Source: Arthrobacter sp. CDRTa11
GTDB taxonomy: Bacteria; Actinomycetota; Actinomycetes; Actinomycetales; Micrococcaceae
DNA: 64,000 bases
Reading direction: 5' to 3'
NCBI RefSeq assembly: GCF_026427775.1
Contig: NZ_CP044532.1
Span: forward strand, 1 to 64,000
Below the pieces are notes generated by a model. That model was not told the DNA's origin. It saw only the letters and a list, made by a program, of their open reading frames with translations, and did no database searches. The position numbers and the translations under genes are program-made. This document shows positions 1,423 through 19,071 of this stretch, piece by piece. The stretch's first letter is position 1, and every line of letters begins with the position of its first letter.

Positions 1423-1992
1423 ACCCACGCACTCTTACCTTATTAACAGGCACGTGTGGATAAGCCTGTGGATAGTTAAGGGGACAACCGCGCTTAATGG
1501 GCTTAAAACCCTTAAGGCATCTGTGGATCAGCGAAAACGCCAAAATGGTTATCCCCATCCACACCCTGTTTAAAACCTGCTCAACCCACAATCCATGAAC
1601 AGGGCTTAACCGCTGGATCCTGCGGCGAAACCGAGTTATCCACAGTTTCCACAGCAGTTATTAACACTACTAATCCCAAAAAATTGAATTCCCTCAAACA
1701 ACAATCCCGATCCGCACGCCGCCCAACGGGAGTGGAGCAGAGGTCCAGAGCCAGCCGAACGGCCGCCCCACGGGCGGTCCGGGCGGACCGGCCTTCTCCG
1801 GATCCCTGCCGGGGATGGGTTAATCCCCAAACTTCCGGCTAAGCTGTCAGCAGCGCTCCCATCCTTGGGTTTCTTTGTGGTTCAGCACGCCTGGACCATG
1901 CAGGTTCAGGAGTTTGGGGCATCACTTTTGAAACTCCCTGATGGAGATTCCGGTTCAGATATGGCAGCAGCAATGAAAGGCGGCACCCTTCC
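1423..1992. other. oriC: Replication origin oriC (dnaA-dnaN intergenic region)
   Basis: This 570-base gap has no plausible gene. Exact TTATCCACA boxes lie at 1636-1644 (plus) and 1455-1463 (minus, read as TGTGGATAA). Near-matches are at 1467-1475 and 1522-1530 (minus) and at 1549-1557, 1555-1563 and 1645-1653 (plus). After the tandem boxes at 1636-1653 comes an AT-rich stretch to about 1700, the likely unwinding element. The 3' part, from about 1700, is GC-rich and should contain the dnaN promoter, which I could not pin down. Location, box density and the AT-rich element make the oriC call secure. The exact opening site is inferred. Confidence 0.93.
1636..1672 (+). promoter_or_regulatory. Tandem DnaA boxes plus DnaA-trio-like element
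   Basis: TTATCCACA (1636-1644) abuts GTTTCCACA (1645-1653). A GCAG spacer follows, then the triplets TTA, TTA, ACA, CTA, CTA (1658-1672). On the complementary strand four of the five read 3'-[G/A]AT-5', the published form of the DnaA-trio that guides DnaA filament growth on single-stranded DNA in Bacillus and other bacteria. The triplet order is seen directly. Its role as the basal unwinding site is inferred. Confidence 0.6.
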
Positions 1993-16132: not shown

Positions 16133-17014
16133 ATGAGTTACGGAATCCCGTCGGTCGAGCCGTCCGCGCAGGTCCCGGTCTGCCCCAGGCACCCGGACCG
16201 GCCCTCTTATGTGCGCTGCCAGCGCTGCGGGCGCCCCGCGTGCCCCGATTGCCAGCGGGCGGCCGCCGTCGGGTTCCAATGCATTGACTGTGTTAACGAG
16301 ACAAAACGGACGACGCCGGCAGTCCGGACGGTCTACGGCGGCGCCGTAGCAACCGGCAAACCACTGGTGACGTTTGGAATTATCGCCGCGTGTGCGGTGA
16401 TGTACGTTCTTCAATGGATTGTTCCCGGCGAGTGGATCTTCCAGAACCTGGCGTTCGCCAATGGATTCGTCACTCCCGACTCTGGCGAGTTCGAACCGTG
16501 GCGGATGCTGACGGCGGCTTTCCTGCACTCCCAGGGCTTCATCCTCCACATTGTGCTGAACATGTACATGCTGTGGATTTTTGGACAGGCACTCGAACCG
16601 CTCCTGGGCTGGGTCCGCTTCCTGGCCGTATATCTCATCTCCGCTATCGGAGGGTCCGTGGGCTACCTGCTGCTGACCCCCGGCTACGTGCCCGGAGTGC
16701 CCCAGGCCGGCGTAGTAGGCGCCTCGGGTGCCATCTTCGGGCTTTTCGGGGCCATGCTCCTGGTTCAACGGCACCGTGGCGGGGATACGCGGCAACTGTG
16801 GGTACTCATCGCCATCAACGGCGTGATCGGGTTTGTGATCCCACAGATCGCCTGGCAGGCGCACCTCGGCGGGCTCATTACGGGCGGGCTGTGCGCGGCG
16901 GTGATCGCCTACACTCCCCGTGGGCCACGGCAGGCGCTGCTGCAGGCCTGCGGCCTGGCAGCAGTTGTCATCCTGCTCTTTCTGGTGAGCTGGCTCCGGG
17001 TAACCGCTGGCTAG
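16133..17014 (+). CDS. Rhomboid-family intramembrane serine protease with N-terminal zinc ribbon
   Basis: Cleaves transmembrane helices within the lipid bilayer. The 293-residue protein has the catalytic Ser198 in GASGAIFG and His244 in HLGG. A histidine-to-asparagine pair, H139-x3-N143, supports the oxyanion site. Six or seven hydrophobic helices lie between residues 78 and 290. The N-terminus carries eight putative metal ligands: Cys17, His20, Cys29, Cys32, Cys37, Cys40, Cys50 and Cys53, a B-box or zinc-ribbon-like fold facing the cytoplasm. This fusion is known in actinobacterial rhomboids, but its function is unclear. It is co-directional with the cyclophilin gene nine bases upstream. Substrate unknown. 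Confidence 0.92.
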   Translation: MSYGIPSVEPSAQVPVCPRHPDRPSYVRCQRCGRPACPDCQRAAAVGFQCIDCVNETKRTTPAVRTVYGGAVATGKPLVTFGIIAACAVMYVLQWIVPGEWIFQNLAFANGFVTPDSGEFEPWRMLTAAFLHSQGFILHIVLNMYMLWIFGQALEPLLGWVRFLAVYLISAIGGSVGYLLLTPGYVPGVPQAGVVGASGAIFGLFGAMLLVQRHRGGDTRQLWVLIAINGVIGFVIPQIAWQAHLGGLITGGLCAAVIAYTPRGPRQALLQACGLAAVVILLFLVSWLRVTAG

Positions 17015-17051
17015 TCCGGTGACGCGGCCGCCACGGGCGGTTCCCTTCCTT

Positions 17052-17101
17052 ACTAATGACAAGACCCGGTGTCCCCAGGAACACCGGGTCTTGTCATTAG
17101 T
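17052..17101 (+). terminator. Long perfect hairpin terminator after rhomboid gene
   Basis: Twenty-one bases (17052-17072) pair perfectly with 17081-17101 around loop CCCCAGGA. No T-run follows on the plus strand, but the stem is unusually long and GC-rich in the centre. It can act on transcripts from either side and marks the boundary with the DnaA-box region. Confidence 0.75.
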
Positions 17102-17191
17102 TGGGGTTAAGCGGGCCGCCGTCCATTGCCGGCCGCCGCTCCCTCTTCCCTTGATACCCAAGGCCTGGATGTCCTTTCCGGCCTCCCGTAG

Positions 17192-17571
17192 TTTTCCACA
17201 GCACTTATCCACAAGTGTTGGTAACTTACATGGCTGTAGTTCACACCTGAGGGGCTCCAGTTCCTTACAGACAGGCAGGTTATGGCAGGAAGCGGCGCTT
17301 TTTTCCACAATTGTGCACAACTCCGAAGCCTGTCCCTGTGGGTAAGTGGACAACTTCCGTATTTCTGCCCACCCTGTGGAAAAGCTCGATTCAGGAGCAC
17401 TTTCAGCGCTGATTCCCATCAAGTTCCGCAGGATCTCCACAGTTTATTCACACCACTAATAACTACAGCTTTGTAGTTATTAGTGGCGTTTTGGCGGCAA
17501 CGCACGGCTCGGGGCCGGCAGTACTCGAGTAATCCCCCCGTTTTCCACACCTGTGGATAAGTTGTGGGTAG
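17192..17571. other. DnaA-box cluster 1, putative DnaA-titration locus
   Basis: A gene-free stretch packed with boxes. Exact TTATCCACA occurs at 17205-17213 (plus) and 17552-17560 (minus). TTTTCCACA occurs four times: 17192-17200, 17301-17309 and 17541-17549 (plus) and 17375-17383 (minus). Further relatives are TTGTGCACA 17311-17319, TTACCCACA 17337-17345 (minus), TTGTCCACT 17345-17353 (minus), ATCTCCACA 17433-17441, TTATTCACA 17444-17452 and CTACCCACA 17563-17571 (minus). Many are paired at 0-4 base spacing, which favours cooperative binding. Short open frames here have no family similarity. Off-origin clusters that titrate DnaA are known in E. coli (datA), Bacillus and Streptomyces. That role here is inferred. 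Confidence 0.7.
17453..17486. repeat. AT-rich perfect palindrome inside DnaA-box cluster 1
   Basis: Fifteen-base arms, CCACTAATAACTACA (17453-17467) and its complement (17472-17486), surround loop GCTT. It directly follows two DnaA-like boxes. No gene ends here, so it is not an obvious terminator. It could form a cruciform, bind a dimeric protein, or serve as an unwinding element. Confidence 0.6.
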
Positions 17572-17756
17572 TCGAGTGTTAGTAAGTGCACAACCCCCTT
17601 TGCATGGTTCTACGCGACACAGGGATGAAGCAGTCCGGGCCTCCGAGGTGGGCAAAAGCTCCGTGGCTGCATGAAAGGCTGGAAGCAACACAGCAAAACC
17701 CTCTGCCGTCGGTGGGCGACCACCCCCACCGCAGAGGCTTTCCAGCAGGAGGATCC

Positions 17757-18227
17757 ATGAGCGCCGCCACCACCCAGCACATTTTCCTGGACAAACAGCA
17801 CCCCGCCATCTGGCGGGCTTTGAACGGCTTGGGACTGAAAGTCCGTGAGGCTGCTGCCGAGACCGGGATCGACAATACAATCATCGATCTCCTCTATGTT
17901 CGGATCTCCCAACTCAACGGTTGCGCGTACTGCCTGGACATGCACGTAAGGGAAGCTGTGGACAACGGTGAAACTCCGCAGCGTCTGGCCGTGCTGCCGG
18001 CGTGGCGGGAGACAGCTCTCTTCACCGACAGGGAGCGGGCTTCCCTGGCCCTTGCAGAATGCATCACGGAGCTGCCGGATTACCGGTCCCGGGAGCACGA
18101 GGAGGGATATGCCCGTGAACACCTCAGTGCGGAGGAATTCTCGGTGGTCAGCTGGCTGGCGATCACAATGAACGCCTTCAACCGGGTATCAATCACCAGC
18201 CATCATCCGGTGCGCAGGGATCGGTAA
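17757..18227 (+). CDS. Carboxymuconolactone decarboxylase / AhpD-like protein
   Basis: The 156-residue protein has an AhpD-type redox centre: the CxxC of LNGCAYCLDMHVREA near residues 57-60 with the nearby histidine. Members act as alkylhydroperoxidases or thiol-dependent reductases. The exact substrate is unknown. ATG 17757 is chosen because AGGAGG at 17747-17752 lies four bases upstream. An in-frame extension to 17586 would run toward the DnaA boxes and looks unconserved. The gene stands alone, flanked on both sides by DnaA-box clusters, so DnaA could affect its transcription. The catalytic glutamate and relay histidine typical of true AhpD are partly seen (TITELPDYRSREHEEGYA region), so the activity call is moderate. 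Confidence 0.85.
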   Translation: MSAATTQHIFLDKQHPAIWRALNGLGLKVREAAAETGIDNTIIDLLYVRISQLNGCAYCLDMHVREAVDNGETPQRLAVLPAWRETALFTDRERASLALAECITELPDYRSREHEEGYAREHLSAEEFSVVSWLAITMNAFNRVSITSHHPVRRDR

Positions 18228-18295
18228 CGCCGGAAGGGCCAGCCCGTCGCGGTTTCCGCCGCCGCTCTCATCCACTGCACTGTTGGTTGCCGCTG

Positions 18296-18424
18296 TTATC
18301 CACAGGGTATTCCACAGTGTTAATAAGTGGTGTGAAACATGCCAATTTCCCTGAAGCGGCCCGCTGGCCCCTCCTGCTCCTGCCACCGGTCCTCAACGCG
18401 CCAGGTTATACACATTGTGGATAA
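18296..18424. other. DnaA-box cluster 2
   Basis: Between the AhpD-like gene and tag are TTATCCACA at 18296-18304 (plus), TATTCCACA at 18308-18316 (plus), TTATACACA at 18406-18414 (plus) and an exact TTATCCACA on the minus strand at 18416-18424. The last two face each other one base apart, forming a near-palindrome of 19 bases. The stretch 18228-18456 has no gene. Together with cluster 1 this gives two arrays within 1.3 kb. Confidence 0.6.
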
Positions 18425-18456
18425 CCTTCCCAACAGCTGGGGAAAACGGTGGCGGG

Positions 18457-19071
18457 TCAGGGAACTGCCCGCGGCCACACGCCCGATGAGCCGCGCCGGT
18501 GGCTGTCCACCAAGTGGGTGTCAATCATGCCGATTGCTTCCATCAGGGCAAACATGGTGGTGGGTCCAACAAAGGAAAACCCTTGCTTGCGCAGGGCTTT
18601 GGACAACGCAACGGACTCCGGGGACTGGGTGGGAATGTCCGCGTGGGACATGGGGTGTGGTGTTGTTTCCGGCTGGAACCGCCAGACGAAGTCCACCAGG
18701 CCACCCTGATCACGCAGGGCCAGTGTTGCCCGGGCATTGGTGATGGCCGCCCGGATCTTGAGCCGGTTCCGGACGATGCCTGGGTCCTGGAGGAGGCGCT
18801 CCACGTCAGCCTCCGTGAAGGCTGCAACGGTGTCCGGCTGGAAATTGTGGAACGCTTCCCGGAAGGCGGGGCGTTTTCGCAGGATAGTCGCCCAGGACAG
18901 CCCAGCCTGAAAGCCCTCGAGGCAGATCCGCTCGTAGAGTCCCTGCTCGTCGCGGACAGGGAGGCCCCACTCGGTGTCGTAGTACTCCCGCAGGAGGGGA
19001 TCAGCGGAGGCCCACGGCGGCCGGGCCAGTCCGTCGTCTCCGATCACGGAGCCGTTGCTGCCGGGGGCCAT
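18457..19071 (-). CDS. tag: DNA-3-methyladenine glycosylase I (Tag family)
   Basis: Removes 3-methyladenine from alkylated DNA, starting base excision repair. The 204-residue protein follows E. coli Tag closely in its core: YYDTEWGLP, LFE-like YERICLEGFQAGLSW with the key tryptophan, then ALRKQGFSFVGPTTMFALMEAIGMIDTH. The start is ATG 19071; the frame runs further upstream without conserved sequence. The usual zinc snap is altered: the N-terminal Cys is replaced (RPPWA where others have R-C-x-W) and the C-terminal His/Cys pair reads HLVDSH. It shares the minus strand with crgA, whose stop lies 41 bases upstream of this start. Confidence 0.9.
   Translation of the reverse strand: MAPGSNGSVIGDDGLARPPWASADPLLREYYDTEWGLPVRDEQGLYERICLEGFQAGLSWATILRKRPAFREAFHNFQPDTVAAFTEADVERLLQDPGIVRNRLKIRAAITNARATLALRDQGGLVDFVWRFQPETTPHPMSHADIPTQSPESVALSKALRKQGFSFVGPTTMFALMEAIGMIDTHLVDSHRRGSSGVWPRAVP

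Follow-up and report, generated by a model that had tools for sequence, protein, structure and literature searches.

The DNA described here carries a non-coding cluster of DnaA boxes 15.5 kb from the right-hand box of oriC. Because many related bacteria have this element with the same genes as neighbors, it is probably a replication control site that has been overlooked. It lies in a window of 64 kb, by which we mean the whole stretch of DNA analyzed. Our preferred explanation, held with somewhat better than even confidence, is that the cluster is a selected locus near oriC that would act with a partner protein to sequester or inactivate DnaA, in the manner of datA. Little is known of how actinobacteria, mycobacteria and Streptomyces among them, limit initiation, and we know of no actinobacterial equivalents of the Hda- and SeqA-type controls of E. 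coli. A DnaA locus of modular build that keeps its position across many families of the class would be a directly testable control element, and the dyad in its modules, which recurs beside dnaA in some lineages, could serve as DNA bait for a new replication regulator. No description of the module, of the dyad or of its recurrence at dnaA was found in the literature we searched.

Anatomy of the box cluster

An earlier note on this DNA had claimed a dense DnaA-box cluster at 17192..17571, and our counts bear it out. Eight boxes with at most one mismatch to TTATCCACA fall in 17150-17620, all of them in 17192-17560, against a mean of 0.11 and a maximum of 2 in 500 first-order Markov simulations. 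Allowing two mismatches gave 14 boxes, two of which are both strands of one palindrome (Markov mean 1.4, maximum 6 in 500 simulations). The two exact and four variant boxes that the note had counted are present: TTATCCACA occurs at 17205(+) and 17552(-), and TTTTCCACA at 17192(+), 17301(+), 17375(-) and 17541(+). The cluster also holds more boxes than oriC, as had been proposed (8 versus 5 with at most one mismatch, 14 versus 11 with at most two, the 11 being counted over 1420-2000). Of the 23 sites in the window with at most one mismatch to TTATCCACA, 8 are in 17192-17560 and 3 in 18296-18424; oriC accounts for 5, the CMD gene for 1, and the remaining 6 lie elsewhere. Exact TTWTCCACA occurs 70 times in the genome (20 for a reversed-pattern control). 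Eight of these copies lie within 17192-18424 (1.24 kb) and two in oriC, and the sole other pair less than 1 kb apart is at 5152082 and 5152426. We built a sequence model of the core, R1, on 47 sequences from the window and its relatives. At E ≤ 0.01 it matched two places in the whole genome, 17191 and 18295, both in the cluster locus, and all matches listed for three other genomes of the genus likewise fell within that one locus.

An alignment of 42 sequences from the genus, 18 of which were re-aligned, resolved the cluster into one module present in two to three copies. The left half of the module consists of tandem boxes 13 bp apart (TTnTCCACAGnnnTTATCCACA), a weak reversed box (TGTTRRTAA) and a dyad, AACTTACA-N4-TGTAGTT. 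Between the two halves comes a spacer of about 75 nt, variable in sequence and almost constant in length. In the right half a convergent pair, TTnTCCACA-nn-TGTGGATAA, with its boxes 10-11 bp apart, is followed by more weak boxes. Spacing was measured in the loci of 80 relatives together with the window. Same-strand boxes peak at a spacing of 13 bp (73 pairs) and plus-to-minus boxes at 10 and 11 bp (40 and 74 pairs, 114 in all), and divergent minus-to-plus pairs less than 40 bp apart number only 6. The distance from the tandem boxes to the minus box is 120-124 in 60 of 92 cases counted, with a second peak at 143-146 in 24 of 92. The earlier account had recognized the box cluster but missed the module repeat, the conserved dyad and a conservation that reaches deeper than the genus.

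The left border of the cluster in the window is a perfect 21-bp inverted repeat (17052..17101), probably the terminator of the rhomboid gene, and the CMD gene (PF02627, AhpD-like by family match; 17757..18227, plus strand) lies on the other side, which agrees with the placement between a terminator and a redox gene given in the earlier note. Module A begins with the tandem boxes TTTTCCACA (17192) and TTATCCACA (17205), 13 bp apart on the plus strand (17192..17213). Next come a weak box-like 9-mer on the minus strand, TGTTGGTAA (17216..17224; mean majority fraction 0.93 in the genus alignment), and the dyad AACTTACA-N4-TGTAGTTC (17223..17242), the putative site of a second protein. The right half of module A (17301..17353) contains a box at 17301(+), TTGTGCACAA at 17311-17320, and boxes at 17337(-) and 17345(-). 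TTGTGCACAA is a degenerate convergent partner; relatives usually have an intact TGTGGATAA 11 bp from the plus box. By box scan and alignment, a single minus-strand TTTTCCACA box (17375..17383) stands between modules A and B, and the left boxes of module B are ATCTCCACA (17433) and TTATTCACA (17444), both on the plus strand (17433..17452). The module B dyad, AACTACA-GCTT-TGTAGTT, is contained in a perfect 15-bp palindrome whose loop has 4 bases (17453..17486). The right half of module B (17541..17594) has the convergent pair 17541(+)/17552(-), with a 2-nt gap, and weaker boxes from 17563.

The cluster stands as the earlier note had marked it, but the feature continues beyond that extent, with a third module past the CMD gene. 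Module C (18296..18446) lies between the CMD gene and tag and has boxes at 18296(+), 18308(+), 18318(-), 18406(+), 18416(-) and 18438(-) and no dyad. It could be aligned in all 39 genus loci examined for it, and in most of these module C has the box pairs and no dyad. The CMD gene splits modules that adjoin elsewhere, because relatives in the genus without a CMD match (e.g., L035, L036 and L045) hold all modules inside a single gap. One TTGTCCACA box occurs inside the CMD gene itself, at 17957-17965(-).

We rejected an RNA element, for which the Rfam matches were far under gathering scores; the best, where the gathering score is 42, reached 26.6 bits and fell on the terminator hairpin. A phage origin was likewise rejected, on one scan of viral contigs that gave 0 matches.

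Conservation of the element

The neighboring marker gene crgA is present in 119 of 120 genomes of the family (32 genera) and in 80 of 81 genomes of the genus. We compared 80 crgA loci, 45 from the genus and 35 from 14 other genera, which sample 15 of the 32 family genera and were chosen among the better crgA matches with the motif disregarded. A profile of the left half, seeded with 31 sequences from these same 80 loci, matched 74 of them at E ≤ 1e-4. The six loci that it missed (L020, L052, L059, L064, L067 and L073) have no rhomboid match in the stretch compared. In all 71 family loci that contain a rhomboid match, the left half follows the rhomboid gene, at a median distance of 180 bp from its end in the genus and 142 bp in the other genera (one at 2465). 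Conservation of the boxes at the same gene order, the check that the earlier note had proposed, was found in these 71 loci, where both the boxes and their spacing are kept. Of these loci, 30 have crgA(-) as the next mapped gene, 20 have tag(-) and 21 have CMD(+). In 22 loci with no CMD match, the gap between rhomboid(+) and the tag or crgA(-) gene that faces it is 1.1 kb or less. The element therefore lies after both gene ends wherever an opposite-strand tag or crgA comes next, as it does in 50 of the 71 loci.

The boxes and the dyad are what has been kept. In all 74 motif-bearing loci, no other part of the stretch compared is as dense in boxes as the element. Boxes per 450 bp average 8.0 in the genus (range 5-12) and 5.4 in other genera (2-9), compared with 0.10 in 548 control windows taken from these loci. 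Within the genus the majority fraction per column is 0.90 for boxes, 0.95 for the first dyad and 0.75 for the second dyad, against 0.50 for other columns including the spacers, so the first dyad is conserved like the boxes; its core columns are invariant or nearly so among the 47 aligned sequences. A GTDB scan with the exact core pattern found at least 117 stretches, 109 of which are full-length and contain 2-12 boxes per 450 bp. The core is present in named records of Arthrobacter, Pseudarthrobacter, Paenarthrobacter, Glutamicibacter, Sinomonas and Psychromicrobium, and the 80 titles listed are all Micrococcaceae except one Vibrio cholerae record. That record (L227, titled Vibrio cholerae 35D) carries a Micrococcaceae core pattern and is probably a mislabeled or contaminated assembly. 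In two genomes of one family genus (G002 and G033; loci L109 and L110) the motif and crgA are more than 20 kb apart and neither a rhomboid nor a ppi match lies near the motif; here the element may have moved or the region may have been rearranged.

Beyond the family, R1 matched 82 of 149 order genomes at E ≤ 0.01, many of them partially. At E ≤ 1e-4 it matched 6 of 198 phylum genomes, namely our own, one congener and four of a family (f22) that looks like Mycobacteriales by gene content; both the order and phylum searches ran stricter filters that miss weak matches. Eighteen of the 24 stretches around R1 matches have both crgA and rhomboid/ppi, and the motif lies between them in 18 of 18, with a different gene orientation in one (L099). 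The other six (L101, L103, L106, L107, L109 and L110) lack a match to crgA, to rhomboid/ppi or to both. crgA was found in 103 of 108 class-level genomes searched, and we selected 20 of these crgA loci for reading. Within 400 bp downstream of crgA, 16 have at least two boxes and L133 has one; L122, L130 and L134 have none in that interval. The profile matched 7 of the 20 at E ≤ 0.001. Where the dyad occurs in deep lineages it is a cleaner palindrome, such as ATTACACGCGTGTAAT (L128) or ATCACACGCGTGTGAT (L113). Five loci of a putatively Streptomyces-like family, f21 (L115-L119), have at least four boxes between rhomboid and crgA, and the standard form of the dyad is absent from all five. Each of the five carries CGGCGTCAAC, preceded by GTCAYA-N, upstream of TTATCCACA; this block may be a dyad that has diverged. 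In 20 of 20 genomes with dnaA and the element on one contig, all picked as carriers of the element, the distance is 13.4-67 kb and the element is downstream of dnaA. In G315, dnaA and the element are on separate contigs.

Other copies of the dyad

The dyad is rare, and it is not confined to the cluster. A pattern search for it matched 59 of 61 genomes of the genus, against 1 control match in total, and its palindromic form occurs in 12 of 21 assorted genomes at one to three places each (control, 0). Exact TTACANNNNTGTRRTT occurs at four places in our genome: the cluster locus, 1500792, 2023298 and 5161045. With one mismatch there are 22 strand-matches, against 8 in the control. The copy at 5161045 is about 188 bp upstream of dnaA. 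All 11 same-genus stretches that reach this site, our own genome included, have a dyad (13 of 14 positions) that abuts a DnaA box, TTATCCACA, upstream of dnaA; the stretch L185 stops short of the site, and L183, from another genus, has no dyad upstream of dnaA. We also compared 22 dnaA stretches, from our genome and from 21 others belonging to other genera and families. Seven of them (our own genome, three of one genus and others) carry 8 dyads with at least 11 of 14 positions, where about 0.4 would be expected from single-base shuffles, and all 8 lie in the dnaA flanks, either upstream or in oriC. The other 15 have no dyad; they include every Mycobacteriales-like stretch and three from the same family. 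Just before the window begins, G000:C1:5160988-5161159 holds six boxes with at most one mismatch, within 245 bp of the dnaA start codon, and this box group with its abutting dyad is similar in the genus stretches that we read.

Several further copies lie near genes of other kinds. In four Mycobacteriales-like loci (L161, L162, L163 and L143) a copy lies upstream of a SepX/GlpR-type divisome gene, assigned in L162 by a match to NF045516 (E = 5e-98) and in the others by the same N-terminal sequence. The copy at 1500792 (L157-L160, L170; genomes of the genus) overlaps a promoter-like sequence, TTGACT-N18-TGTAAT, upstream of a small conserved ORF beside TIGR03089. The copy at 2023298 (L153-L156, four genomes of the genus) lies between tRNA-like sequences and a deformylase-like ORF. 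Three places that matched the dyad pattern were discounted by eye, L164 and L165 as terminator-stem-like and L168 as coding-like.

We considered MtrA and FtsR as partner proteins, which like the proposed factor are actinobacterial regulators linked to dnaA/oriC or to division genes. The published accounts give direct repeats as the binding sites of MtrA and the 25-bp repeat AACCCTAAAGTAAAGGTTGAGGGTA as the FtsR site. Neither motif resembles the dyad by eye, and both candidates were rejected. No regulator gene stood out as a partner candidate in the neighborhoods of the extra dyads in our own genome. Tentatively, and with somewhat less than even confidence, we propose an actinobacterial cell-cycle factor that binds the dyad. 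It would act with DnaA at an origin-proximal control locus found across the class; in several lineages it would also act at oriC or the dnaA promoter, and in some at genes for division or the cell wall, of which SepX/GlpR is an example. Such a factor would be the actinobacterial counterpart of IHF at datA and would also couple initiation to division.

Candidate functions

PMC5742627 and PMC4585315 describe E. coli datA as non-coding and origin-proximal, with a partner site between box groups and constrained spacing, and according to PMC10380432 and PMC5742627 its essential boxes all run in one direction. The cluster is like datA in that it is a non-coding, conserved set of boxes near oriC, in numbers above chance, and in its arrangement of box group, partner site and box group at a set spacing. 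It differs in that it mixes tandem and convergent boxes where datA has one-direction boxes and an IHF site, in that its modules are repeated two to three times, and in a dyad that looks unlike the IHF consensus. A locus of the datA type also binds DnaA and stimulates ATP hydrolysis, and extra initiations follow its deletion. The earlier note had proposed a DnaA-control locus of the datA, Bacillus or Streptomyces sort. By its boxes and its conservation this remains the best reading of the element, which would bind DnaA and titrate or inactivate it.

At such a locus, the head-to-tail and convergent boxes of each module would be bound by pairs of DnaA a fixed distance apart, and in modules A and B a second protein would occupy the dyad between them. 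By bending or bridging the DNA, this protein would probably bring the two DnaA groups together, in the way of IHF at E. coli datA. The locus would be duplicated soon after initiation and would then soak up DnaA or promote its inactivation, and holding or inactivating DnaA at that time would delay re-initiation. Several observations count against this explanation. The variable number of boxes argues against an exact titration count, and convergent pairs are more like DARS than like datA. Module C has no dyad. In the window, a degenerate box takes the place of one convergent partner, and drift has turned the second dyad into a perfect hairpin. Finally, most of the 22 dnaA stretches are free of the dyad, and in G002 and G033 the motif is not close to crgA.

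DnaA-box clusters near oriC that repress untimely initiation have already been described in B. subtilis and S. coelicolor (PMC4585315 and PMC5742627). The S. coelicolor clusters resemble ours in being actinobacterial, oriC-proximal and reportedly repressive, and the Streptomyces-like f21 copies differ in lacking the usual form of the dyad. The B. subtilis clusters also lie near oriC and are said to repress untimely initiation, but they belong to a different phylum from the host of our cluster, and we know of no module or partner dyad in them. Smulczyk-Krawczyszyn reportedly described the S. coelicolor DnaA-box clusters H69, H24 and D78 in 2006. We take cosmid H69 to carry crgA, and cluster H69 may be the same locus as the cluster here, which would make our cluster less new. 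We do not file the cluster as a member of either datA or DARS.

The main rival, because convergent pairs are DARS-like, is that the cluster reactivates DnaA: its head-to-head pairs would promote ADP release and raise active DnaA before initiation. Head-to-head boxes I and II are a hallmark of DARS and essential to it, and auxiliary-factor sites lie beside the boxes that reactivate DnaA (PMC10380432). The cluster and the loci of its relatives, with their 114 convergent pairs, share this orientation. So do TTATCCACT(+) and TGTGGATAA(-), which point toward each other at a spacing of 14 bp in the bioD-uvrB gap of E. coli, a gap that we take to be the place of DARS1. Spacing in the cluster is 10-11 bp rather than 14, each module also has a tandem pair and modules A and B a dyad at a fixed distance, the cluster lies near oriC, and no clear counterpart of the third-box layout or of the IHF and Fis sites of DARS was recognized. 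We regard reactivation as unlikely.

Slightly less probable still is a role in the architecture of the origin region, in which DnaA and the dyad protein would organize, position or segregate the new origin with no direct effect on DnaA activity. The fixed geometry of the module, its place downstream of dnaA in all 20 genomes measured and the dyads beside dnaA in some lineages would fit such a role. The window has no parS-like site (at most two mismatches), and the dyad is tied to no segregation protein.

Transcriptional control, with DnaA and a repressor regulating the neighboring CMD, crgA or rhomboid gene, seems to us distinctly improbable. Modules A and B do precede CMD, which is the next gene in 21 of 71 loci, and elsewhere the dyad occupies promoter-like positions, upstream of SepX/GlpR and, near TIGR03089, over TTGACT-N18-TGTAAT. 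The other 50 loci, however, have an opposite-strand tag or crgA as the next mapped gene, so the element does not lie upstream of a conserved gene, and we rejected promoter function for the locus as a whole. The argument of the earlier note that ordinary promoter function does not explain the cluster is right for loci without CMD; where CMD is present, the element could act on it. A promoter scan of 16950-18500 found 0, against 0.5 expected in shuffles, and says little.

A second or auxiliary origin is very improbable and was rejected. The boxes of the cluster do outnumber those of oriC, but oriC (1440..1700) has boxes at 1455(-), 1467(-), 1522(-), 1549(+) and 1636(+) followed by a DnaA-trio-like CTACTAA and an AT-rich tract, and the cluster has neither a DnaA-trio-like run nor such an unwinding tract. 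In cluster 1, the 30-mer with the highest AT content coincides with the palindrome. The oriC boxes between dnaA and dnaN are kept in the six relatives counted, and the DnaA-trio-like run in the oriC of three relatives reads CTACT in two and CTACG in one. GC skew over the first 30 kb shows no clean switch and was given no weight. A product of chance or drift without function is barely credible: it would account only for the tolerance of variable box number, and it is already refuted by a sequence and position conserved across families, in addition to the excess of boxes over the 0.1 expected.
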